A program made the translations under genes and the position numbers. Of a DNA stretch of 64,000 bases, positions 12,220 through 32,574 are shown piece by piece (within the stretch, counting starts at the first letter, position 1; each line of letters starts with the position of its first letter). The notes under the pieces are model-generated. The model was not told the origin of the DNA and ran no database searches. It saw only the letters and a list, made by a program, of their open reading frames with translations. Origin of the DNA: Kiritimatiellia bacterium (GTDB taxonomy: Bacteria; Verrucomicrobiota; Kiritimatiellia; RFP12; UBA1067); contig JAFWKK010000038.1 of assembly GCA_017514235.1 (NCBI GenBank), forward strand, positions 124,001-188,000, read 5' to 3'.

Positions 12220-14475
12220 ATGAACGAACTGCTCAAGGACATGTCGTCGCGCATAAAGGAGTTGCGCGAGATAGGCGGCAAGAGCACTGCCGAGATGGCA
12301 AGGCTCACCGAAGTGGACGAACGCGACTACATCGACATCGAGTCGGGGAAGAAGGATCCGCCCTTCACCTTCCTGCACAAGTGCGCCCTCGCGTTCGGCA
12401 TCGACATTACTGCACTCCTTGAGGGTCACAGCGCCAAGCTGTCGCACTTCCAGGTGAACCGCGCCGGGCAGGGCCCCGTGACGGTGAACGAGCAAGGAAT
12501 CCTGATCCGCAACATGGCGGCGATGTTCAAGGACCGCCTCGCCACGCCCTACTACGTGACATACGAGTACGACGAGCGCCAGCAGAAGGCTCCCATCCAC
12601 ACGACTACGCACGCCGGCCAGGAGTTCGACTACGTCGTATCGGGGTCGATGCGCGTCAAGGTCGGCGACCATGAGGAGACGCTTAACACCGGCGACTCCA
12701 TCTTCTACAAGTCCTCAACGCCCCACGGCATGGTCGCCGTTGGCGGCAAGAGCTGCTCCTTCATCGCCATGATAATGTCCGGAGACGCGGCGGAACAGTC
12801 ACTGCCAATGGTGAAGATGCGTCGCCGCAAGCCCAACGAGCCCCTTCTTGCAGAGAAGTTCGTCAAGTGCGAGGAGGACGGCGACGGCAAGCTGGTCCAC
12901 ATCTCCTACGCGAACGACGACGAGTTCAACTTCGCCTTTGACATCGTGGACGAAATCGCGAAGAAGGACCCGAACAAGCTCGCGATGCTGCATGTCTCTG
13001 CTCACATGCGCGAGAGACGCTTCACGTTCAAGGACATGATGGAGCAGTCGAACCGCGTTGCAAACTACATGAAGTCCCTAGGCATCGGCAAGGGCGACAA
13101 GGTAATGCTCATATTGAAGCGGCACTTCCAGTTCTGGCCGACGATGCTAGCCTGCCACAAGCTCGGCGCGGTCGCGATTCCAGCGACGAGCCAGCTCAAG
13201 GCCCACGACCTCACCTACCGCTTCAAGGCCGGAGACGTGAAGGCGATATTCTGCACGGGCGACGGCGACGTGGCTATCGAGGCGGACGCGGCAGAGAAGG
13301 AAATCGACGCGAAGCTCGTGAAGGTGCTGGTATACGGCAAGCGCGATGGCTGGCACGACTATAACGCCGAGGTGCCGGGGTTCTCGGACGTCTTCGAGCG
13401 GACGCCAGGCTCCCCGTGCGGCAACGACCCGATGCTGATGTTCTTCACGTCCGGCACGACGGGATATCCGAAGATGGCCCTCCACAGCTGCAAGTACGCG
13501 CTCGGCCATTTCGTGACTGCGAAGTACTGGCACCTCGTCGAACGCGACGGGCTGCACTTCACCATATCCGAGACGGGCTGGGGCAAGGCGCTCTGGGGCA
13601 AGTTCTACGGGCAGTGGCTCTGCGAGGGGGCCGTCTTCACCTACGACTTCGAGCGGTTCGACGCCGAAAAGGTGCTGCCGATGTTCGAGAAGTACGGCAT
13701 CACCACCTTCTGCGCGCCGCCGACCATATACCGCATGCTAATCAAGCAGGACATCTCGAAGTACGACTTCACCTCAGTTCGCCACGCGACCACGGCTGGC
13801 GAGGCGCTCAATCCCGAGGTGTGGACGCAGTTCGAGCGCGCAACCGGACTCCAGATAGCCGAGGGCTTCGGGCAGACCGAGACCACGCTCTCTCTCGCGA
13901 ATCTCCTGGGCGACGAACTGGAGCCAGGCTCCATGGGCAAACCTGTGCCCGACTACGGAGTGGACCTTGTGGACGCGGACGGCAACTCCGTCCCCGCTGG
14001 CGACAATGGCGAGATAGTCGTGCGCACCGACCGTGCGAACCCGCACCCCGGGATCTTCCTTGGCTACTACAAGGACCAGGAGAAGACTGACGAGGTCTGG
14101 CGCGGCGGCTTCTACCACACGGGCGACCTCGCGTGGAAGGACGAGAACGGCTACTACCACTACGTCGGACGCGCTGACGACGTCATCAAGAGTTCCGGCT
14201 ACCGCATAGGCCCCGCCGAGATCGAGAACGTCATAATGGAACTCCCCTACGTGCTCGAGTGCGGCGTGAGCGCCGCTCCCGACCCGATACGCGGGCAAGT
14301 CGTCAAGGCGTCGATCGTGCTCGTCAAGGGCGTGCAGGGCACGGACACGCTGAAGGAGGAGATACAGCGGTATGTAAAGGAACACACCGCCCCCTACAAG
14401 TACCCGCGTATCGTCGTCTTCCGCGACGACCTGCCGAAGACCATCTCCGGCAAAATCCAACGCAACCTGCTCTAA
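12220..14475 (+). CDS. XRE-cupin-acyl-CoA ligase fusion
   Basis: A 751-residue protein in three parts. Residues about 9-65 form an XRE-type helix-turn-helix. About 115-190 form a cupin with the His/Glu pattern HTTTHAGQEFDYVVSG and a second half ending STPHGMVAV. About 215-751 are a full adenylate-forming acyl-CoA ligase of the medium-chain/benzoate type (FFTSGTTGYPKMALHS, GFGQTETT, HTGDLAW, the C-terminal region KTISGKIQRNLL). The frame is continuous and the gene lies 17 nt after the first ligase gene. The fusion suggests one polypeptide that binds DNA, senses a small acid or CoA product and makes the CoA ester. A similar stand-alone XRE-cupin follows it. Confidence 0.88.
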   Translation: MNELLKDMSSRIKELREIGGKSTAEMARLTEVDERDYIDIESGKKDPPFTFLHKCALAFGIDITALLEGHSAKLSHFQVNRAGQGPVTVNEQGILIRNMAAMFKDRLATPYYVTYEYDERQQKAPIHTTTHAGQEFDYVVSGSMRVKVGDHEETLNTGDSIFYKSSTPHGMVAVGGKSCSFIAMIMSGDAAEQSLPMVKMRRRKPNEPLLAEKFVKCEEDGDGKLVHISYANDDEFNFAFDIVDEIAKKDPNKLAMLHVSAHMRERRFTFKDMMEQSNRVANYMKSLGIGKGDKVMLILKRHFQFWPTMLACHKLGAVAIPATSQLKAHDLTYRFKAGDVKAIFCTGDGDVAIEADAAEKEIDAKLVKVLVYGKRDGWHDYNAEVPGFSDVFERTPGSPCGNDPMLMFFTSGTTGYPKMALHSCKYALGHFVTAKYWHLVERDGLHFTISETGWGKALWGKFYGQWLCEGAVFTYDFERFDAEKVLPMFEKYGITTFCAPPTIYRMLIKQDISKYDFTSVRHATTAGEALNPEVWTQFERATGLQIAEGFGQTETTLSLANLLGDELEPGSMGKPVPDYGVDLVDADGNSVPAGDNGEIVVRTDRANPHPGIFLGYYKDQEKTDEVWRGGFYHTGDLAWKDENGYYHYVGRADDVIKSSGYRIGPAEIENVIMELPYVLECGVSAAPDPIRGQVVKASIVLVKGVQGTDTLKEEIQRYVKEHTAPYKYPRIVVFRDDLPKTISGKIQRNLL

Positions 14476-14508: not shown

Positions 14509-15072
14509 ATGATCACAGAGTCAAAAGTCGGTAGCCGAATCCGCACCTACCGCGAGAAGCTCGAGATGAGCGTCTACGACCTTGCGACGAAGAGCGGCAT
14601 CGACGAGAAGCTCGTCAACGCCATCGAGAAGGGAGAGGTGCTGCCGGCCCTCGGCGTGCTCACAAAGCTCTCCCGCGCGCTCGGGCAGCGTCTCGGCACG
14701 TTCATGGACGACCAGTTCAAGCCAGACCCGATCATCACCCGCGCCGAGGATCTCGAGGCCGCCAAGGTGCAGTCGGAGGGCAAGAACTCGCTCGGCTACT
14801 CGTCGCACTCGCTGGCGCTCGGCAAGCCCGACCGCCACATGGACCCCTTCCGCATCGAATTCGCCGCCGACGGAGTCGACGAGCTCTCCTCCCACGAGGG
14901 CGAGGAGCTCATCATCTGCATCGCGGGCGAGGTCGAGCTCATGTACGGCAACGACCGCCACGTGCTAAGGCCCGGCGACACGGCTTACTATAACTCGGTC
15001 GTCAAGCACGGTCTAAAGGCCCTCGGCGGAAAACCCGCCTCGATCTACGGCATAGTGTTCATGCCGTTCTGA
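14509..15072 (+). CDS. XRE-cupin transcriptional regulator
   Basis: A 187-residue regulator with an N-terminal XRE helix-turn-helix (about 8-62) and a C-terminal cupin (about 105-185; DELSSHEGEELIICIAGEVE and YNSVVKHGLKA). It is clearly related to the N-terminal 190 residues of the preceding fusion protein and probably arose from it or the reverse. It sits 33 nt behind it, with AAAGG upstream of the ATG. A likely role is feedback control of this ligase operon by a carboxylic acid or CoA ester bound in the cupin. Its 3' end overlaps the convergent sensor kinase gene by 14 nt. Confidence 0.9.
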   Translation: MITESKVGSRIRTYREKLEMSVYDLATKSGIDEKLVNAIEKGEVLPALGVLTKLSRALGQRLGTFMDDQFKPDPIITRAEDLEAAKVQSEGKNSLGYSSHSLALGKPDRHMDPFRIEFAADGVDELSSHEGEELIICIAGEVELMYGNDRHVLRPGDTAYYNSVVKHGLKALGGKPASIYGIVFMPF

Positions 15073-18284: not shown

Positions 18285-19073
18285 TCAACTCGTTAGAGTT
18301 TCAATCGGGACCTTTCTGTCGGCACCGGGGATGTCGGCGACAAAGCGCGGCAGTGCGAGTCCGCCTATGCGCTCGGCGCAGTATTGTTCTATCTCCTTCG
18401 CGCGGGCAAGTGGCACCCGTAAGCGCTCCAGTCCCGCGACAGGGTCGCACTGGAACACGTAGTACGGACGTATTCTCGCCGCCGAAAGCGCCCGCAGGAG
18501 TGCAAGCATCTTCTGCGGCGTGTCGTTGACACCCTTAAGCAGCACGGTCTGTGACGAGACAGGTATGCCGCGCGTAACGAGCTTCGCCGTCGCCGCGTGC
18601 GCCGTCATGGCCTCTGCCGCAGTGTTTATGTGGACGTTCGCCCACACCTTGCCCGACTTCGCAAGCATACGCGCCAGCCGGTCGGTTATTCGCGTCGGAC
18701 GCGAAACCGGGGCGCGAGTGCAGATACGGATAACCTCAACCTGAGGAAGCGCCGCAAAAGCATCAACTAGCTTCATCACTCTGGCGTCCGGCAGCGTAAG
18801 CACGTCACCACCGGAGAGCAGCACGTCTCTCACCCTGTGATGCCGCCGCACGTAGGCGACGCAACGCGCAAGGTCATCAGGAGTCTCAACGGTCGGTGTC
18901 TGGCCCAGTATCCACCGCCTCGTGCAGTGTGCGCAGCGCTCGAAGCAGCAGTCCGTCGTCATGATCAGCACGCGGTCCGGGAAGCGCTGCTTAAGCCCCG
19001 GAGTCTTTTGGGCTGCAGTCAGTTCGCCGAACGGATCTTCAACGAACTCCCCAACTGTCTTCGTAATGCTCAT
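18285..19073 (-). CDS. Short KamA-family radical SAM aminomutase
   Basis: A 262-residue radical SAM protein of the lysine 2,3-aminomutase/EpmB family. The CxxxCxxC cluster motif is CFERCAHC, in the family context TDCCFERCAHCTRR. The GGD stretch is in LLSGGDVL, and the C-terminal PLP-binding Lys is kept in GADRKVPIE. It is shorter than lysine 2,3-aminomutase (about 415) and EpmB (about 340) because most of the N-terminal domain is missing. The ATG at 19073 overlaps the preceding stop as ATGA; an upstream start at 19103 is less likely. It could make beta-lysine for EF-P (epmA is at 35298-36182) or serve the KS/AT operon in which it is embedded. Confidence 0.85.
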   Translation of the reverse strand: MSITKTVGEFVEDPFGELTAAQKTPGLKQRFPDRVLIMTTDCCFERCAHCTRRWILGQTPTVETPDDLARCVAYVRRHHRVRDVLLSGGDVLTLPDARVMKLVDAFAALPQVEVIRICTRAPVSRPTRITDRLARMLAKSGKVWANVHINTAAEAMTAHAATAKLVTRGIPVSSQTVLLKGVNDTPQKMLALLRALSAARIRPYYVFQCDPVAGLERLRVPLARAKEIEQYCAERIGGLALPRFVADIPGADRKVPIETLTS

Positions 19074-22000
19074 TCGTCGAACAGCGACGACGGTATGAAA
19101 CATGAGGCGAGGGCATGATTACGCACGGTCTTGACCGTCACGTGAATGTCCCGCCCGCGGAAGTTCTTGAACGCGTCCGACCATGCGCCGGACAACCTGA
19201 GTGTGAGCACGCCCGCGTCGGAGAGGAAGTCCGTCACTGTCATCTCCCTGGGGCTGTAGCGAATGCCAGTGCCGAGCGCCTTGGATACGGCCTCCTTCGC
19301 ACACCAAAACTTAATCACGGCCTGCGAGGCGTTTGCGGCCTGTGCGGCTAGCTCGAGCTCCTCCGGCGAGAAGACGCCGGAGGCAAACTCCTCTGACAGG
19401 TCACGGTCAACAGACTCCACGTCCACCCCGACGCGGGCATTCGCCGCAGCAACCGCCACCACAAACTTTGCGGTATGGGCGATGGCAATGTCAAGCCTAG
19501 TTGAGAGGAAGTCGCTCCAAGAGCCGAGCGCATGCGGCTTGCCAGAGCCGTCCGCCCAGATGCGGACGTCAGCGTCGCTCCAGCGCGCCTGATAGTAGGT
19601 GGTGAGAAAACGGCGGACTGCCTCCTTGGCGGCAATGCGACCGAACAGCCATTCGGTAAGCCGAGAGGCAGAACCCGTCATCTCTGCGAACTCCGTGCGT
19701 TCCGCGGCGTCAAGGGCGATGTGCGAAAGAGCCTTGAGCCAAAGATTCTCGTTCCTCTCAAAGACCACGTAGGGAACATCGGTGATGAACGCCGACGAGA
19801 CGTCAGTCGCCGGTTCGCCGAGAATTTCCTTGCCGAGCGGGGCTGTAAGGAACGTCATCGCCGGCTGCAGGATCATCTGCCGGTATTCGGCAGGCATGCG
19901 CTCTATCTGCTCCTCCAGTCCGGAAACGGCCATAAGCTCGTTGCCGTTGCCGTCCGTAACAGAGATGTCGCAAATCTGGCTTTTGGGCGTAACTCCCGCA
20001 AGGCGCAAATAGCAGCGCAGCCGCGCACCCTCGCCTGGCATCGGGCCACCGAACGAAAGACGGCGAAGTCGGAACGGCAATGAAAACGCGCCGACAAGGC
20101 GCTCGTGGCTGCGCCAGAGCGTAAAGCCGCTGGTTACGATCTCAAGCAGAAGCGGGTTCACCACCCACATCGGGAAACGCGTGAACGACACGTTGCCTGC
20201 CAACGGCGGCACGGCCACTTCGTAGTCAATGCCGTTCTCGCTCCATGCATCGACGAACTGAATGCCTCGCAGTCGCCGTCCGAAGCAGATGCGCGAAGGA
20301 TAGACGTCTCGTCCGGACCAGTGGACGCTTCGGGGTTTTGCCAGAGGCGGGATTGCGGCCGGCTTCGGCGGCGGCGGCACGTCCGACAAGACGCACGTCG
20401 CCTCCATCACCGGCAGGGTATATGCGCTGTTCGGAGAATCATCGCGTATCTGGACCTTGACGGCATGTTCGTCAGGAGCGTGCGCCGCGACTCGCTCAGC
20501 TCGCACGAACAGCCGCATCTCGCCCTTGACGAAATGCGCCATGCGTCTGCAGTTTAGGTCTTCGACGCGCAAGAGGTGCCGGTTGGGCACGACAAACTCC
20601 GCGGCCTCTGCCATGATCTCGGCACCGATGGAGAGCGTGAGAAGGATCAGTCCCTTGAGGTTGGGATCGGAATAGCTGAGCTGGCTCGTGCCGAGCGCAT
20701 AGTCGCCAAGGAACGGCAGCTCCGAGAGACGGAACAGCTTCGTCATCTCAACCGAGACGCCGGGGCTCGAGTCCATCACGTCCGCATCGGACACGAGAGG
20801 GTTCATCGCACCGAAGTCGAATTGGCGCTGGCGGCGAGCCTGCTGTGCGATGGCCGCCGCACGCGCCGCCGCCTTCGCGCCTCGTCCGCGCGGCTCCGCA
20901 AGGAAGGAGGCGCCGTGCAGCATCGTGCTGCCGTCAGAAAGCAGCGTCAGGCGCGGGAAGGAACGCGACAGGCGCATCTCGGAATCCTTGCGGACCTCAA
21001 GCGAAAGCGCCGCGTCGAAGTCGAGCTTGCGAGCGTCGCGACGCCGGAAAGTCTCGGAAATGTCCATCTGCGCCCCAAGAGCCACAAGCTGACCGATGGC
21101 GTGCTGCGTCTGGAGAAGACCGCGCCGGTGAATCGAGTCGAGGGCGATTGCGGCATGCGCCTCGTCGCGAAGAGTGTCGCCGACAGCGGCAGTCATCAGT
21201 CCGCGCGGCCCGACCTCCAGGAACACGCGGTAGCCGTCGGCGTACATGCGCCGAATGGTATCCACTAACATCACAGGACGCGCCCAACGCCCGGCTATGT
21301 CCTCGCGTGCCGAACGGAGACGGGAAGGAAGACGGTCTGCCGTCGCGCACGAGTATACGTCAATGTCTGGCGCATTCCGCATCCAGCCTGCGGCGAACTT
21401 GCGGATCGCAGGAACAAGCGACTCGCACATCGGCGTGTTGAACGGTCTGTCGAGCGCAAGGCGCATGGCGCGCACCCCTGCCGACGCGAACGCGGCCAAA
21501 GCCTCGTCGGCAAAATCCTGCGCGACAGCATAAGTCTTGTAGCGAGGCGAAAAGTCCACCGCAAGCGTAACCTTGCCAGGCGGAAAGCCGGACACTACGG
21601 CCGCGACCTCTTCAGGATGGCGCGTCAACACCGTCACCATGGCGACTTCCGGCAGCCCGCCATGGTTGACGGCCTTGTGCACGATACGGTAAATGTCTGA
21701 TATGACGCGCAGCCGGTCGGGGCGCGACGGCTTGGCTCCGGCAGCGCCGGAACGCATCATGGCCGCAAGGTCGCCGCCGGCAAAGCCGACAACACCGTCC
21801 GGCGAAAGGCCGAACGACGCCAGCAGGCGGGTAAGCGCCATGCAGCCGGCGTATGTCGAGACGAGTGCCTGCGCATACGCGCCAGACTTGTAGATGTCGG
21901 CATCATGCCGGTAATATGGCGCGGGCGGAAAGATAAAAGAAGACGGCGTGAACTCAGCGTCACCAGCCAGCGCTTCCTCCAGCTCGTCGAATGCTGCGCG

Positions 22001-22375
22001 GCACTCCGGGTAGGCGATGGCCAGGTCTCGAAGCATGTCCGGGTAGAAGCTCATGACGCCCGGGTAGACGAACGCAAGGCGTCCTCGCCCTTCGCCAAGG
22101 AGCCGGTCTCGGAAATAGTACGTTCCGCTCTTGTCGCGGATGCGACGCACGGAGCCGCATGAAAGGCGGCGTACGGCAGAGACAAGGCGCACTCGCAGCG
22201 ATGCAGTGTCCGGCGCGATTACCGCGAGAGTGCTCTCGCCCCGGCGCAACGCGCATGTATAGGCGACATCGACGAGAGGCACGTCGGGGACACGATCAAG
22301 GAAGCCGACCAACCGGGTGGCCTCGGCCACAAGCGACGCCTCGTCTGCCGCGCTGACCAGCACAAGTTCCGTCAT
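19070..22375 (-). CDS. AT-DH-PPTase protein with degenerate acyltransferase and dehydratase domains
   Basis: A 1101-residue protein. Residues about 95-440 align with a PfaB/PKS-type acyltransferase (LAFVYPG to the C-terminal linker). About 540-830 align with a double-hotdog polyketide dehydratase. About 880-1095 are a 4'-phosphopantetheinyl transferase with GVDVE (about 983-987) and FWCAKEAVSKALG (about 1023-1035). The AT nucleophile motif GHSxG reads GFAGG (197-201), so both His and Ser are lost. The downstream catalytic His is Asn313 in PFNTP. The DH His of the family is Tyr559 in FLGDYALG, and the second-half Asp is Glu745. The PPTase motifs are intact. No carrier-protein DSL motif is present. 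The start overlaps the KS stop (ATGA). Confidence 0.85.
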   Translation of the reverse strand: MTELVLVSAADEASLVAEATRLVGFLDRVPDVPLVDVAYTCALRRGESTLAVIAPDTASLRVRLVSAVRRLSCGSVRRIRDKSGTYYFRDRLLGEGRGRLAFVYPGVMSFYPDMLRDLAIAYPECRAAFDELEEALAGDAEFTPSSFIFPPAPYYRHDADIYKSGAYAQALVSTYAGCMALTRLLASFGLSPDGVVGFAGGDLAAMMRSGAAGAKPSRPDRLRVISDIYRIVHKAVNHGGLPEVAMVTVLTRHPEEVAAVVSGFPPGKVTLAVDFSPRYKTYAVAQDFADEALAAFASAGVRAMRLALDRPFNTPMCESLVPAIRKFAAGWMRNAPDIDVYSCATADRLPSRLRSAREDIAGRWARPVMLVDTIRRMYADGYRVFLEVGPRGLMTAAVGDTLRDEAHAAIALDSIHRRGLLQTQHAIGQLVALGAQMDISETFRRRDARKLDFDAALSLEVRKDSEMRLSRSFPRLTLLSDGSTMLHGASFLAEPRGRGAKAAARAAAIAQQARRQRQFDFGAMNPLVSDADVMDSSPGVSVEMTKLFRLSELPFLGDYALGTSQLSYSDPNLKGLILLTLSIGAEIMAEAAEFVVPNRHLLRVEDLNCRRMAHFVKGEMRLFVRAERVAAHAPDEHAVKVQIRDDSPNSAYTLPVMEATCVLSDVPPPPKPAAIPPLAKPRSVHWSGRDVYPSRICFGRRLRGIQFVDAWSENGIDYEVAVPPLAGNVSFTRFPMWVVNPLLLEIVTSGFTLWRSHERLVGAFSLPFRLRRLSFGGPMPGEGARLRCYLRLAGVTPKSQICDISVTDGNGNELMAVSGLEEQIERMPAEYRQMILQPAMTFLTAPLGKEILGEPATDVSSAFITDVPYVVFERNENLWLKALSHIALDAAERTEFAEMTGSASRLTEWLFGRIAAKEAVRRFLTTYYQARWSDADVRIWADGSGKPHALGSWSDFLSTRLDIAIAHTAKFVVAVAAANARVGVDVESVDRDLSEEFASGVFSPEELELAAQAANASQAVIKFWCAKEAVSKALGTGIRYSPREMTVTDFLSDAGVLTLRLSGAWSDAFKNFRGRDIHVTVKTVRNHALASCFIPSSLFDE

Positions 22376-23775
22376 GTGCGGTCCTCCGGCTCTTCTTCAA
22401 GTATTATCACAGCGGCACGCCCCGCTTCGGACGTCGTGCCGACTGGGTTGGCGGTGTCGAAGTTTGCGCCCATTACCGCGGCGCGGCGGGGACTCGCGCT
22501 GTCACCGGTGATCCACGGACGCTCCTCGTTCAGTATGTAGACGCTTGAGGCAAGGTTCGACACGGAGTCAGCCGCCTGCCCTGACGAGACCTGAGGCGGC
22601 AACACGCGGTGCGCAAGTGCGAGCGCGGCCTTGACGACACCAGCCGCCATCGACGCGCGCAGCGTATGGCCTATGTTCCCCTTTACGGACCCCACGCCTA
22701 CGAGCGGCATGCCAGGCCGATGCTCGCCCCACAGCCGCTGTATCGCGTCAAGCTCACGGCGCTCCGCCGCTGGAATGCCCGTACCGTCCGCCTCGATAAG
22801 ACCGATCGTGTGCACAGGCACCCCTGCGCTGCCTGTCGCCTCAACGAAAACCGATGACAGGTCGTCTTCCTCGCCATGCCCAATGGCGACAGACCTCACT
22901 AGAGCATATATCCGGTCTCGGTCACGAAGTGCATCGGCGCGACGCTTCAGCACGAAGAATGCCCCTCCCTCACCAGGAAGAGTGCCGTCCTGATCCCTGG
23001 CAAACGGATGAAGCTCTGGGCGCCGCGTGAACGGAACCTCGCCCGACACCCCCTCGATGTAAGCCCGGTTGAACGGCGGCGTGAACGCGCCAGCGAGCGC
23101 AACGTCGACGCGGCCGGACACGAGGTCGTCGACCGCAGCGGCAATCGTCGCCGCACCGGTAAGCATGCCGGCGTCCATTATTGTCGCCGCGCCTGAGAAA
23201 GAGCACTCGCGGGCGATCCAGGAAGCGAACCGGTAGCCGGCGCCCATCAGGAACGATGCGGCATTCGGCGACGGCAGGGACTCCACGAGCTTCGACTTCA
23301 CCGACGCCATAGCCTCCTCGGGAGCGTTCGGAAAGAAGCGGCGTATGATGTCCAGCGTCTGGTCAAGGAACGAGGTGTGCTGAAGCCAGTTTACCGTCGA
23401 GGCGTTGAACGGTGGCGCGTAGCCGACACGCACCGTGCCCCGCACCGCAGGCTTCGCATGTGGCTTCATCAAGGCGTCGCCGAGTGCATCGAAAGCAAGC
23501 TGAGTCGCGAAGTATAGGTCCTGGTTCTCGCCCGCGTTGACCTGTCTGGGGAAGTTCTGCGCCGACGGCACGCAGGCGTACAGGTCGCCCAGCTGTCCTA
23601 TGCGCGCCGGATACGGACGCGCAAACACACCGGTCTGCCCGAACGGCATCTCAGCTTCCGGTCCGGGCGGCGTGAGCAGCACCTTGCGCTCTCGTATGGC
23701 ACTCCAGAGCGCCGCAGGCGAATTCACCCCGGCGAACCGGCAACTCATGCCGACGATCGCTATCGGATTCTCCAT
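22372..23775 (-). CDS. Ketosynthase-like protein lacking the catalytic Cys
   Basis: A 467-residue beta-ketoacyl synthase fold protein of the PUFA-synthase/PKS type, with the usual N-terminus PIAIVGMSCRF and the region LVSGRVDVALAGAF. The position of the active-site Cys (family DTACSSS) reads DAGMLTG, with Met204. The first catalytic His (EAHGTG) is Asp330 in EADGTG. Only the second His remains, His370 in KGNIGH. The C-terminal GFGGTNAH is changed to a GANFDTANP form. It may be a chain-length-factor-like partner or a binding scaffold rather than a condensing enzyme. It starts 20 nt after the previous gene without a clear Shine-Dalgarno and overlaps the AT gene by ATGA. Confidence 0.88.
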   Translation of the reverse strand: MENPIAIVGMSCRFAGVNSPAALWSAIRERKVLLTPPGPEAEMPFGQTGVFARPYPARIGQLGDLYACVPSAQNFPRQVNAGENQDLYFATQLAFDALGDALMKPHAKPAVRGTVRVGYAPPFNASTVNWLQHTSFLDQTLDIIRRFFPNAPEEAMASVKSKLVESLPSPNAASFLMGAGYRFASWIARECSFSGAATIMDAGMLTGAATIAAAVDDLVSGRVDVALAGAFTPPFNRAYIEGVSGEVPFTRRPELHPFARDQDGTLPGEGGAFFVLKRRADALRDRDRIYALVRSVAIGHGEEDDLSSVFVEATGSAGVPVHTIGLIEADGTGIPAAERRELDAIQRLWGEHRPGMPLVGVGSVKGNIGHTLRASMAAGVVKAALALAHRVLPPQVSSGQAADSVSNLASSVYILNEERPWITGDSASPRRAAVMGANFDTANPVGTTSEAGRAAVIILEEEPEDRT

Positions 23776-28674: not shown

Positions 28675-29970
28675 TTACCAAAGTCCAGCACGGCAAGCCA
28701 GGCGCAGACCGACGGAGCTGTACTGCGAATTAGGGGTGTTGCTGCCGCGCACCGCCATGCGCTGAAACTTCGCCGGATTGTTCCAGGCGCCGTCTCGCCG
28801 CACATGCTGTTCTGCCACGACGGTGTTCACCGCACCGTTCAACGCCGTGATGTCGGCGGCGAACCAGTCGAGGCACCATTCGATCACGTTGCCATGCATG
28901 TCGTACAAGCCCCAGGCGTTCGGGGCGTAGGAGCCGGATGGCGCAGTGCCGCCCGTTGTACCTCCAGCACCGTCCGTCTGATTGCTTTTGTAGCGTCCCA
29001 ACCTGACGAGGTTCGAGTCCACGCCGTCTTCAAGCTGAATCTTCGTTCCGTCGTTCCAGCACCCCTTCTTCCAGATTTCACACCCGACCTGAAGTCCGGC
29101 GCGGCATGCGAACTCCCACTGCGCTTCGCTCGGCAGATCGAAATCGACCTGTGTCGCCGTTCGCAGCTTGCCGAGGAACGAATCTCCGCATGGATTGTTC
29201 GGCCAGTCGTAGTTCGTGTAATCCGCCGCCGTCGCCGTCTTGCTTGCCGACACCCTGATTTCGTTGTACGACACCTTCTCCACAGGACGCATATCGCCCT
29301 TCAATTCGGCTGGATTGCCACCCATCACCGTCTCCCACTGCTTCTGTGTCACCTCAAACACGCCGATGTAGTAGTCGTTCGTGAGCGTAACCTCGTGCGG
29401 CGTCTCGTTGGCCGCTGTGCGCCCCAGCTCCAGCGCCGTACTGCCCATCGTCCATGTTACGTTCTTGGCATCGATGCGGCGCATCACGATGGAGGTTGTG
29501 CGATAGACGGGATTGGCGAGAAGTCCGCCCGGCAAGTAGTTGGTGGAAGCGTAATAGCGCACATTGTCGCCCGCCTCCGCCGTCAGGTCCACCACCATGT
29601 AGTCCGGCGTGTGGTCGGGTGCCCATGCGGTCAGGACGGCCCGGATGCCTCCGTCCGGGATGATCCGGTCGCGCCAGTCGCGCCGGGCCAGCCATGTGAT
29701 CGTATAGGTCTCCTTTCCGGAAACCAACTTGTTCACGTCGCCGGAAACGTGCTGGAAGTTGTCGGCTCCGATGGACGCCCACACATTGCCAGTCACGTTT
29801 GTCTCGATATCAAGCGTCACCACGGCCGGCGCGTTTGCAAGGGTGTAGGTGATCGTGACCGTGCGCGTACCCGGCGGCTGCGACATAACCACGTTCCCAA
29901 CCTCCGGCACGGCGGCTGTCAGCATGGAACCTGCAAGGACAAATCCAATGGCAATCATAATCTTCTTCAT
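28675..29970 (-). CDS. Secreted SUMF1/FGE-sulfatase-domain protein (paralogue 3 of 3)
   Basis: About 431 residues with a signal peptide (MKKIMIAIGFVLAGSML). An N-terminal beta-sandwich of about 150 residues (VTITYTLANAPAVVTLDIET, SGKETYTITW) is followed by a SUMF1 domain (about 165-430) with WTMG, YYIGVFEVTQKQW, FDLPSEAQWEFACRAG, YDMHGNVIEWCLDW and a final GLRLACRAG. The C-terminal Cys residues that form the copper active site of true formylglycine-generating enzyme are absent, so it is unlikely to modify sulfatases that way. ATG 29970 is preferred to a TTG two codons upstream. It is tandem with two homologues. Confidence 0.88.
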   Translation of the reverse strand: MKKIMIAIGFVLAGSMLTAAVPEVGNVVMSQPPGTRTVTITYTLANAPAVVTLDIETNVTGNVWASIGADNFQHVSGDVNKLVSGKETYTITWLARRDWRDRIIPDGGIRAVLTAWAPDHTPDYMVVDLTAEAGDNVRYYASTNYLPGGLLANPVYRTTSIVMRRIDAKNVTWTMGSTALELGRTAANETPHEVTLTNDYYIGVFEVTQKQWETVMGGNPAELKGDMRPVEKVSYNEIRVSASKTATAADYTNYDWPNNPCGDSFLGKLRTATQVDFDLPSEAQWEFACRAGLQVGCEIWKKGCWNDGTKIQLEDGVDSNLVRLGRYKSNQTDGAGGTTGGTAPSGSYAPNAWGLYDMHGNVIEWCLDWFAADITALNGAVNTVVAEQHVRRDGAWNNPAKFQRMAVRGSNTPNSQYSSVGLRLACRAGLW

Positions 29971-29995
29971 GGTCAAATTCCTTTCTTCCTGTCGC

Positions 29996-31279
29996 TCACT
30001 TCAGACCCGCCCGACACGCAAGACGAAAGCCGATAAACGAATGCCTAAATGTTGGGGCATTCCCTGTCCGCGCCGCAGAGCGGAGATGCACGGCTCCATC
30101 GCTTCCCAGCCCGCTGCGCCTAACGCGGTTGCCGGAACCCGTCGTGATCACCGATCCGTCAGTTCCCGCCAAGCTATCTTGATACCAGTCGAGGCACCAT
30201 TCGCCCACGTTCCCGTGCATATCGTAGAGCCCCCAATCGTTCGGCGCGTATGTGCCGCAGATGGCGGTGCCGATGGAAGCCGGACAATTTGCGTAGCCCA
30301 TACTGCTTGCCGTCGTATTGTTGCCGCCATTTTGGTTGTGCCGTCCCGGAGCCGTGCTGGCCAAAGTCGATGACGTGTAGGCCACGCCGTTGTTCCATTC
30401 ATTGTCGCCATGTCCGGCACGGCAGGCATACTCCCATTCCGCATCGCTCGGCAGATCGAAGTCGATGTCCGTCTTTGCTCGCAGCAGATCGAGGTACGAA
30501 CCGGCGTACGGAGCCTCCGGCCACTCCTTTGCGTTGGCATTGGCCGACGTACTGTTCGCCGCCATGCGAATCTCGTTGTAGCATACGTTCTCCACCGGAC
30601 GCATTGCCCTGTCGCCACCCCAATAGAACTGCGCCGCATTCAGACGCGCTGTCTGCACAAGCGTCCACTGCGTCTGCGAAACCTCAAACACACCGATGTA
30701 ATAGTTATTCGTGAGCGTAACTTGATGGCGTACTTCTTTCGCCCCTGTTGAGCGGTTGCCATCCCCATCGCTGCTTCCCATCCACCACGTCACGCCCTTG
30801 GCAAGAATCTTGCGCATCACGATGGAGGTGGTGCGGTACTTGCGGTTCGCCATCAGCCCACCGGGGAAGAAGTTTGTCGAGGCGTAGTAGCGCACGTTGT
30901 CGGTCTTCGAGGCCGTAAGATCCACCACCATGTAGTCCGGCGTGTTGTCGAGAGGCCAGGCCGTGACCACCGCTTGCGCAGCGGCAAGATTTCCCTGCCA
31001 CGAGAAGTCCGGACGCCACGTGATTGTATAGGTTTCCTTGCCGGACACCTTCTTGTTCACGTCGCCCGTCACGTACTGGATGTTCTCTCCGCCGATGGAG
31101 ACCCCGTTCGTGATAATGTCAAGCGTCACGACAGCGGGCGCTTCAGAAAGCGTATAGGTGACCGTCACTGTGCGGTCATCCGCCTGCGCCATATTGACGC
31201 TCTGCACCGTGGGATCGGCAAACGTGGACAACGCCGCGCCAAACGCGAAAAGGGAAACGAAGTTTGTCATGTTTTTCAT
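29996..31279 (-). CDS. Secreted SUMF1/FGE-sulfatase-domain protein (paralogue 2 of 3)
   Basis: A 427-residue paralogue with the same layout: signal peptide (MKNMTNFVSLFAFGAALSTF), N-terminal beta domain (VTVTYTLSEAPAVVTLDI) and SUMF1 domain (WWMGSSDG, YYIGVFEVSQTQW, FDLPSDAEWEYACRAG, YDMHGNVGEWCLDW, GFRLACRAG). The catalytic Cys residues of FGE are missing (the stretch before the end reads RVRRSGLGSDG and then HLRSAARTG). The ATG at 31279 follows GGGGAGGTGA at good spacing, so the open frame up to 31318 is not used. It begins 20 nt after the upstream paralogue ends. Confidence 0.88.
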   Translation of the reverse strand: MKNMTNFVSLFAFGAALSTFADPTVQSVNMAQADDRTVTVTYTLSEAPAVVTLDIITNGVSIGGENIQYVTGDVNKKVSGKETYTITWRPDFSWQGNLAAAQAVVTAWPLDNTPDYMVVDLTASKTDNVRYYASTNFFPGGLMANRKYRTTSIVMRKILAKGVTWWMGSSDGDGNRSTGAKEVRHQVTLTNNYYIGVFEVSQTQWTLVQTARLNAAQFYWGGDRAMRPVENVCYNEIRMAANSTSANANAKEWPEAPYAGSYLDLLRAKTDIDFDLPSDAEWEYACRAGHGDNEWNNGVAYTSSTLASTAPGRHNQNGGNNTTASSMGYANCPASIGTAICGTYAPNDWGLYDMHGNVGEWCLDWYQDSLAGTDGSVITTGSGNRVRRSGLGSDGAVHLRSAARTGNAPTFRHSFIGFRLACRAGLK

Positions 31280-31299
31280 TATCGTCACCTCCCCTTTTA

Positions 31300-32574
31300 T
31301 TAAAGCCCGGCACGACACGCGAGCCGCAAGCCGATGTATTGATGTTGCAGGTTCGGCAGATTCATACCGCGCGCAGCGGATCTAAGATGGTAGATGTTGT
31401 CGTTGGCCAGCCCGCCACGCCGCACATGTTGCCCCTCCGTTGAATCATCAACGACCGATCCGTCCGTCCCCGACAGGTTCTCCACGTACCAGTCGAGGCA
31501 CCATTCGGCCACATTTCCATGCATGTCGTAAAGTCCCCACGAATTCGGCGCATAGCTGCCCACGATCGCCGTGCCAGCCGAAGCGTCGCTGGATGACGAA
31601 GGCGAAGAACCGACATTGTTCGTGTTCCGCGCAAGCCGGTCAAGATGCAGATCGTGCACATGGTTTGTGTAGGTGGAGCCGTCGTTCCACAGCCCTTCGC
31701 CGTTTCCGGCGCGGCAGGCGAACTCCCATTCGGCATCGCTCGGCAGATCGAAGTCGATGCCCGTCTTCCGGCGCAACGCACCCAGCATCGAGTCTTTATA
31801 GGGCGCATCTGGCCAGTCATAGCCTGTCTTCGCCACCGTGCCGTCGGAATTCCGGATCTGGTTGTAGCATACGCATTCGGCGGGGCGCATGGCATGGTCA
31901 GCTTCATACGAGAAGTTGTTGGAGTTGTAGGCTCCGAACACAAGCGCCCACTGCCGCTGCGTCATCTCGAACACACCGATGTAGTAGTTGTTGGTAAGCG
32001 TGACAGAGTGCGGTGCTTCCCGACTAGTACGGTTGACCTCGTTCACGCAGCCCATCGTCCATGTAACGTCCTTGGCGAGAATCTTGCGCATCAAAATGGA
32101 CGACGTACGGTAAGCCGGATTGGCAAGCAGCCCACCCGGCAGGAAGTTGGTGGAGGTGTAGTAATGCGCCGTCGGCAGGTTTGTCGTGGTGAGCAGGTTC
32201 ACCACAAGGTAGTCAGGCGTGTTATCGAGCGGCCACGCAGTGACCACCGCGCGCGCCTTGCCTGACTCCACAAGGTTGCCTGGCCAGTCGCAGTCTGGCA
32301 GCCACGAGATCGTGTACGTTTCCTTGCCAAAAACCTGGCGGTTCACGTCTCCCGAAACACGCTGGATGTGTTCGCCGCCGATGGAGACCCAGGCGCCGCT
32401 TGCGGTGTTTGTCTCGATGTCGAGCGTCACCACGACCGGCGCGGCGGTCAAGGTATAGGTGATGATAACTTCACGCGAACCGGTTTCGGTAATGTTCACA
32501 TTCTCAGCCCTCGGCTTCGCCGCAAACGCAGCACCGCACAGGAGAAGAAGAGCTGTCAGAGTCAATCGCTTCAT
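31300..32574 (-). CDS. Secreted SUMF1/FGE-sulfatase-domain protein (paralogue 1 of 3)
   Basis: A 424-residue protein with a clear signal peptide (MKRLTLTALLLLCGAAFA), the shared N-terminal beta domain (VIITYTLTAAPVVVTLDIET) and a SUMF1 domain (WTMGCVNE, YYIGVFEMTQRQW, FDLPSDAEWEFACRAG, YDMHGNVAEWCLDW, GLRLACRAGL). As in its two neighbours, no Cys pair corresponds to the FGE copper site. These proteins probably act as secreted binding or structural domains, as many bacterial SUMF1 proteins do. It follows the small anchored protein gene by 20 nt. Confidence 0.88.
   Translation of the reverse strand: MKRLTLTALLLLCGAAFAAKPRAENVNITETGSREVIITYTLTAAPVVVTLDIETNTASGAWVSIGGEHIQRVSGDVNRQVFGKETYTISWLPDCDWPGNLVESGKARAVVTAWPLDNTPDYLVVNLLTTTNLPTAHYYTSTNFLPGGLLANPAYRTSSILMRKILAKDVTWTMGCVNEVNRTSREAPHSVTLTNNYYIGVFEMTQRQWALVFGAYNSNNFSYEADHAMRPAECVCYNQIRNSDGTVAKTGYDWPDAPYKDSMLGALRRKTGIDFDLPSDAEWEFACRAGNGEGLWNDGSTYTNHVHDLHLDRLARNTNNVGSSPSSSSDASAGTAIVGSYAPNSWGLYDMHGNVAEWCLDWYVENLSGTDGSVVDDSTEGQHVRRGGLANDNIYHLRSAARGMNLPNLQHQYIGLRLACRAGL

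Follow-up and report, generated by a model that had tools for sequence, protein, structure and literature searches.

The window analyzed here is a 64,000-nucleotide stretch of a Kiritimatiellia genome (positions 124,001–188,000 of contig JAFWKK010000038.1, assembly GCA_017514235.1), lying in contig 28 of a host assembly of 3.96 Mb in 82 contigs that is 92% complete; all coordinates below are window positions. On its minus strand, it encodes a pseudo-ketosynthase (pseudo-KS) and a protein that joins a pseudo-acyltransferase (AT), a pseudo-dehydratase (DH), and a phosphopantetheinyl transferase (PPTase). This pair probably originated as half of an ancient Pfa-type secondary lipid synthase, was orphaned, and now serves as the cell’s holo-acyl carrier protein (holo-ACP) synthase, with its catalytically dead body acting as a scaffold. 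We put the probability of this reading, which is built on sequence comparison, at about 0.7.

Two genes and their catalytic sites

The pseudo-KS (467 aa; 22372..23775) and the AT-DH-PPTase protein (1101 aa; 19070..22375) are both encoded by open frames whose ends overlap in an ATGA, the start of the second gene lying within the stop codon of the first. Pfam recognized the N- and C-terminal KS domains in the former and, in order, a KS-to-AT linker, Acyl_transf_1, PS-DH, and ACPS in the latter, each above its cut-off. The linker (residues ∼1–97; 22085..22375) matched PF22621 at residues 4–61, and the KS-AT of CurL aligned from residue 3; such a linker at the start of the second protein means that a KS-AT didomain has here been divided between two genes. 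There follow an AT domain without its catalytic dyad (residues ∼98–420; 21116..22084), a DH domain without its catalytic His and Asp (residues ∼540–850; 19826..20758), and an Sfp-type PPTase domain (residues ∼862–1096; 19088..19792), all on the minus strand. The AlphaFold model of the pseudo-KS (pLDDT 89.4) has the KS fold of polyketide synthases (PKS) and matched KS-AT structures, and profile and fold searches both placed the protein as type-I-PKS-like. The AT-DH-PPTase model (pLDDT 86.7) matched multidomain PKS and fatty acid synthases (FAS) best, and its 50 best fold matches included no PPTase. Its pTM of only 0.56 leaves the domain arrangement uncertain, and we did not use it.

On alignment with Escherichia coli FabF, the catalytic Cys of the pseudo-KS is Met204 and the first His is Asp330, with Lys365 and the second His (His370) retained. 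Alignment with FabD placed GFAGG (residues 197–201) at the GHSLG of the AT and Asn313 at its catalytic His; the AT loop PGQ reads PGV in the window copy and PGE in intact relatives. Compared with relatives that have an intact DH, Tyr559 replaces the His and Glu745 replaces the Asp. The residue sets of an active Pfa-type synthase or type I PKS (KS Cys-His-His, AT GHSxG with His, and DH His with Asp) are, therefore, incomplete in this pair. The losses recur at the same sites across the family and most of the order and so are not due to chance.

The PPTase has its GKP (945–947), AIAH (964–967), GVDVE, and FWCAKEA motifs, position 964 being Ser or Ala in most relatives. It scored 65.3 bits against PF01648 (cut-off 25), with the G-D-E and W-x-x-K-E-A motifs present, and this was the only PF01648 match found in the genome. 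The domain is two-lobed, two adjacent stretches matching the acpS model (E values of 7.0e-9 and 0.001). It is not a classic AcpS of ∼120 aa: as a domain, it scored 49.6 bits with TIGR00516, below the cut-off of 59.8. Neither gene encodes a carrier protein, and the single PF00550 match that the genome gave lies on a different contig. An earlier, sequence-only reading of this stretch had described two long open frames joined by ATGA, the same KS, AT, and DH losses, an intact PPTase, and a pair without a carrier protein. The frame coordinates, the comparisons with FabF, FabD, and intact relatives, the conservation of the PPTase described below, and the location of the PF00550 match bear this description out.

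Conservation across the order

We compared homologues from the host’s family (f1), which includes the host’s genus (g1), and from five other families of its order (f2 to f6). Removal of identical copies and of homologues below our length and score limits left 69 KS and 62 AT-DH-PPTase proteins for the residue counts. The AT-DH-PPTase was found in 108 of 115 f1 genomes (G009 gave only a weak partial match) and in all 30 good f1 genomes, those with completeness of 90% or more and contamination of 5% or less. The pseudo-KS is also present in 29 of these 30 (E ≤ 4.5e-96); in the remaining genome, G028, there is no KS in the stretch around the AT-DH-PPTase gene. Homologues of AT-DH-PPTase at 30–38% identity, mostly full-length open frames, occur in f2, f3, f4, and f5; f6 gave weak partial matches or none. 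In three genomes (G064, G023, and G027), both genes are kept but, judging by the stretches around each, are not neighbors. We kept 80 of 263 loci from relatives, and many of these come from the gut of goat, sheep, yak, cattle, or horse. They are labeled Kiritimatiellae, Kiritimatiellia, Kiritimatiellaeota, Verrucomicrobia, Lentisphaerae, or plain bacterium, and one (L193) is labeled Akkermansia muciniphila.

The KS Cys is kept in 4 of 69 distinct f1–f5 sequences, one each from f1g16, f4g22, f4g23, and f5g27. Its site holds 12 different residues (3.46 bits), and only one of the 440 KS columns is more variable; we rejected a fixed replacement residue there. The sequence-only reading had asked whether the same substitutions are fixed; at this site they are not, and the KS active site looks relaxed. 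The KS Lys is kept in 67 of the 69 sequences, and the second His is kept in 63. Among the AT sequences displayed, GHS and the second His occur together only in f2 and f5. The motif in f1 is GFSGG, GFAGG, or a variant, with Asn; it is GIGLG or GVGLG in f3 and GVGIG-like, with the second His retained, in f4. Overall, the second His is replaced in 55 of 62 proteins (by Asn in 54), and the Ser site holds Ala, Ser, Gly, or Val, with many genera retaining the Ser beside the lost His (GFSGG). Within f1, the former AT site is nearly fixed (P311, F312, N313, T314, G197, G200, and G201). The DH His is absent from all 62 proteins, and the DH Asp site holds eight residues. Nine PPTase positions, which lie in GKP, GxDxE, and WxxKExxxK and at the His of AxxH/SxxH, show the same residue in all 62 proteins.

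Selection was estimated from close pairs, of which 25 of 34 were listed for AT-DH-PPTase and 20 of 42 for KS. In 24 of the 25 AT-DH-PPTase pairs listed, dN/dS was 0.04–0.15 for the whole protein and 0.02–0.17 by domain; the listed KS pairs gave 0.01–0.10, with two saturated. Between the window and G059, dN/dS was 0.037 for the dead KS and 0.051 for AT-DH-PPTase, with 0.040 for FabF, 0.082 for FabD, 0.044 for FabG, and 0 for AcpP. Between G046 and G095, it was 0.100 for the dead KS, 0.146 for AT-DH-PPTase, and 0.123 for FabF. By these estimates, the dead domains are not drifting toward noise and are constrained about like the working enzymes FabF and FabD. Together with the mostly open frames, this upholds the view of the sequence-only reading that the pair is not decaying. 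The combination that it had named as refuting its interpretation is seen only in part: relatives with intact catalytic residues do exist, mostly outside f1, but neutral evolution is not seen here.

The fused PPTase, its carrier protein, and its origin

PF01648 matched in 105 of 115 f1 genomes, in 102 of them exactly once. Read by eye, row by row, all f1 matches lie inside AT-DH-PPTase except for one near a true PKS (G011) and one below the cut-off (G105); in G044, both lobes of the one domain were matched, hence an extra match. In f2–f5, 24 of 28 genomes have exactly one match, and two (G131 and G137) have none. The AcpS model TIGR00516 scored above its cut-off in 0 of 30 genomes, compared with 5 of 14 in the control. 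In f6, which lacks the pair, a separate PPTase is present in 15 of 19 genomes, and all eight genomes scanned have a single KS. In f1–f5, almost every genome gave no PPTase but the fused one, so the pair is probably a housekeeping one; this main point is absent from the sequence-only reading.

PPTases activate the carrier protein of fatty acid synthesis, and bacteria need holo-AcpP. The one PF00550 carrier found in the window genome is AcpP-like, has a canonical DSLDS site, and is encoded beside FabD and FabG. With one PPTase and one carrier found in this genome, the fused PPTase would be the enzyme that makes holo-AcpP, which supports the earlier suggestion that it activates a carrier protein. 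A second suggestion, that the pair works with an active synthase elsewhere, did not hold for the window genome: FabF is the only PF00109 protein found besides the pseudo-KS, there is no PfaA-type KS, and with the single carrier this led us to reject a partner synthase.

The two-gene unit also occurs outside the order, in G327, G217, and G211, where the catalytic residues of the KS (Cys-His-His), the AT (GHS and His), and the DH (His and Asp) are all in place; a fourth genome, G215, encodes a likewise intact AT-DH-PPTase at the end of a contig. In all four, there is also a separate PPTase. The G327 unit is ∼6 kb away from an opposite-strand frame of 2535 aa that comprises NMO (enoyl-reductase-like), KS, AT, two carrier domains, and a ketoreductase (KR). 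This frame passes the PfaA model (1063 bits against a cut-off of 1010), a PfaA-type neighbor being found in this one genome only. In G211, the unit follows an ACP-ACP-KR frame and a methyltransferase gene. An intact KS and DH-PPTase, with no AT matched, stand beside a polyprenyl synthetase gene in G325 (L205, 2164–5906). The shared domain order and the intact relatives near a PfaA-type protein are as expected if the pair descends from a subunit of a Pfa-type synthase. Scored with a profile built from the fused f1–f5 PPTases, the PPTases of intact units reached 153–203 bits, an in-cluster PPTase in G172 reached 100 bits, and free-standing PPTases reached 17–48 bits, which argues that the fused domain descends from the synthase’s own PPTase. 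In G211 and G217 (L207 and L206), only the first PPTase lobe was matched (55–57 bits), and a separate PPTase is present, the reverse of the situation in the window’s lineage.

We placed the losses on a tree of 44 KS and AT-DH-PPTase pairs, from which the catalytic columns were excluded and f4g23, f4g25, and the outgroup G325 (no AT matched) were left out. The fewest changes were one for the DH His, two for the AT, and three for the KS Cys, with the DH loss at the base of f1–f5. Loss of catalytic residues is progressive and is deepest in the window’s genus. The intact units outside the order and the ordered losses on the tree point to the window pair as half of a Pfa-type synthase, orphaned and deprived of catalysis step by step.

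We propose the following course of events. The comparison shows that the ancestor was a catalytically intact two-gene unit, KS and AT-DH-PPTase. In f1–f5, where nearly all genomes have no separate PPTase that we could find, the fused PPTase appears to have become the sole one. It would modify AcpP and, given the bacterial need for holo-AcpP, would be essential. By the tree, the pair, released from synthesis, lost the DH His once, at the f1–f5 base, and later the catalytic residues of the AT and KS, those of the KS more than once. The KS-AT-DH body may have stayed under strong selection because the PPTase works only within the complex, be it through stability or folding, dimerization, or docking of ACP on the old ACP-binding faces, and the KS subunit would belong to this complex even where its gene is unlinked. 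A scaffold, one of the roles offered by the sequence-only reading, is the likeliest reason for keeping the dead body.

Alternative explanations, neighboring genes, and known systems

Several points weigh against the reading that we favor. The match to AT-DH-PPTase is in two pieces in f1g18, with AT residues ∼243–323 unmatched (e.g., L083), and in two overlapping pieces in different frames in G014 (C393). Single in-frame TGA codons interrupt AT-DH-PPTase in G133 (C64) and the KS in G049 (C56), both otherwise full-length. All of these irregularities may be real or may be errors of assembly. One very close pair (dS ∼0.02) gave an overall dN/dS of 0.35, with 0.16 and 0.20 for domains and an unreliable 1.5 for the PPTase. 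Other PPTases occur beside the fused one in G115 (three PF01648 matches) and G116 (two), and in G325 (75% complete), whose KS and DH are intact, no second PPTase was found. Most of the genomes are incomplete metagenome-assembled genomes, any single one of which could have a second PPTase that escaped detection. Among 25 relatives scanned for carrier proteins, 5 have one and 20 have at least two (2 to 10), so AcpP need not be the sole substrate in the latter; with more carriers or KS in many relatives, the minimal case is that of the window and some of its sisters, not of all. Action of the PPTase on AcpP and its essentiality are predicted functions, and activity on AcpP is not guaranteed for a domain that descends from a lipid-synthase PPTase. 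Finally, a cell that needed nothing but the PPTase should be able to do without the KS gene and the AT-DH body; the scaffold is our proposed reason for their retention.

The dead KS-AT-DH might do more than support the PPTase. It could be a dedicated platform for docking and control, to which apo-, holo-, or acyl-AcpP binds and which gates the PPTase joined to it, an idea that we hold only tentatively; if true, a fossil lipid synthase would set the pool of holo-ACP across most of the order. The former AT site, altered yet nearly fixed in f1, leaves room for a binding or sensing role. We consider unlikely a regulatory body, in which the dead KS, AT, and DH would bind acyl-ACP or malonyl groups without turnover and tune the PPTase, so that holo-ACP supply would track the state of fatty acid synthesis. 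It would agree with an AT site that is altered and not just relaxed (the common Asn313 and its near-invariant surroundings in f1), with the retained KS Lys and second His, and with purifying selection over the whole body. However, the KS nucleophile site is hypervariable, with no conserved chemistry visible there, and folding explains the conserved residues equally well.

A very improbable alternative is that the pseudo-KS resembles a chain-length factor (CLF), a KS fold without the Cys, and pairs with FabF or a lipid synthase elsewhere to shape its product. Cys-less KS partners are known (see below), FabF is present in the window genome, and other f1–f5 genomes have up to eight PF00109 matches, among which a partner is possible. 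The window genome, however, has no further PF00109 protein, and 15 of the 57 genomes scanned, 13 of them in f1–f5, have exactly two matches (assumed to be FabF and the dead KS). Moreover, the pseudo-KS is cut from its AT at the KS-AT linker and is type-I-PKS-like. Just as hard to credit is a surviving enzyme that performs decarboxylation or hydrolysis on the remaining KS Lys and His or the altered AT. The retained KS residues and the AT Ser beside its lost His in many genera would suit such an enzyme, but the catalytic sites vary among sisters, as the residue counts for the KS Cys, AT Ser, and DH Asp show. KSQ-type decarboxylases have Gln at the KS Cys site, a residue found there in 0 of 69 KS. 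Least probable of all is ordinary decay of a pseudogenized synthase before its frames break: the progressive losses, the in-frame stops, the unmatched AT piece, and the split match would fit it, but the frames are otherwise open and full-length across families, dN/dS is similar to that of FabF and FabD, and both genes are kept even where they are unlinked.

We rejected a conserved operon: of eight window genes tested, none is widely found beside the pair, the KS apart, and for seven of them only 0 to 3 of 119 loci have a homologue. A KamA/EpmB-like radical SAM gene (18285–19103, minus strand) overlaps the end of the AT-DH-PPTase gene. Among the 90 distinct loci that extend far enough downstream of AT-DH-PPTase, 34 have its homologue there on the same strand, and these, where genus-coded, all belong to the host genus. 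Elsewhere in the window, a 751-aa protein (12220–14475, plus strand) fuses a helix-turn-helix (HTH), a cupin, and an AMP-forming acyl-CoA ligase, that is, a regulator-like module on an acyl-CoA synthetase, and is followed by a separate HTH-cupin protein (14509–15072). Three tandem related proteins (28675–32574, minus strand) look secreted and presumably have formylglycine-generating-enzyme-type domains, as judged by eye.

Five Kiritimatiellae families seem to keep PPTase activity only inside a dead megasynthase of ∼1,570 residues, in nearly all of their genomes. If so, machinery of secondary metabolism would have been captured for primary metabolism, which is unusual in nature. Comparison can draw on relatives that are still intact, on intermediate stages, and on a family without the pair, and the role of dead KS, AT, and DH domains for a PPTase could be tested directly. 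In our searches of open-access literature (subscription papers and preprints lying outside our scope), we found no description of a dead synthase carrying a lineage’s only detectable PPTase. Integrated PPTases, Cys-less KS partners, and Sfp-type PPTases for fatty acid synthesis are each already known.

Pfa-type secondary lipid synthases, which are polyunsaturated fatty acid (PUFA)-like and comprise PfaA and its relatives, share KS, AT, DH, and PPTase domains with the pair. In the window, by contrast, the KS, AT, and DH are dead, and the genome has a single AcpP-like carrier and no PfaA-type KS. A plasmid search with AT-DH-PPTase returned 68 records, none covering 80% of the query. One protein each from Beijerinckia indica pBIND02 and Methylosinus pMSC49a aligned with residues 533–1060 (DH and PPTase) at 23–25% identity, and Pfam confirmed both domains in the Methylosinus protein. 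Their DH-PPTase gene adjoins type I PKS and KS-III-like genes, whereas the window protein adds an AT, pairs with a KS, and is dead outside its PPTase. In the excerpts of Shulse and Allen 2011 considered here, Beijerinckia indica is listed with a Type P, phenolic-lipid-type cluster, and the KS of docosahexaenoic acid (DHA)-type PfaB is without its Cys (PMC3098273). Like CLF and this PfaB KS, the pseudo-KS is a KS fold without a nucleophile that evolution has kept; the former two act within an active synthase, whereas FabF is the only other KS found in the window genome. Enediyne PKS (PKSE) have an integrated PPTase domain. The PPTase of Synechocystis is a free protein that is likewise two-lobed, whereas that of the window is the C-terminal domain of a dead synthase. 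Attempts to knock out the Sfp-type PPTase of Synechocystis failed, which was taken as a need for fatty acid synthesis, and the same source, in the portion drawn on here, describes an integrated PPTase domain in fungal type I FAS (PMC5605751). Fungal FAS and PKSE thus also hold a PPTase in a megasynthase, but there it serves its own carrier within an active synthase, whereas the window pair lacks a carrier in cis and shows no sign of synthase activity.

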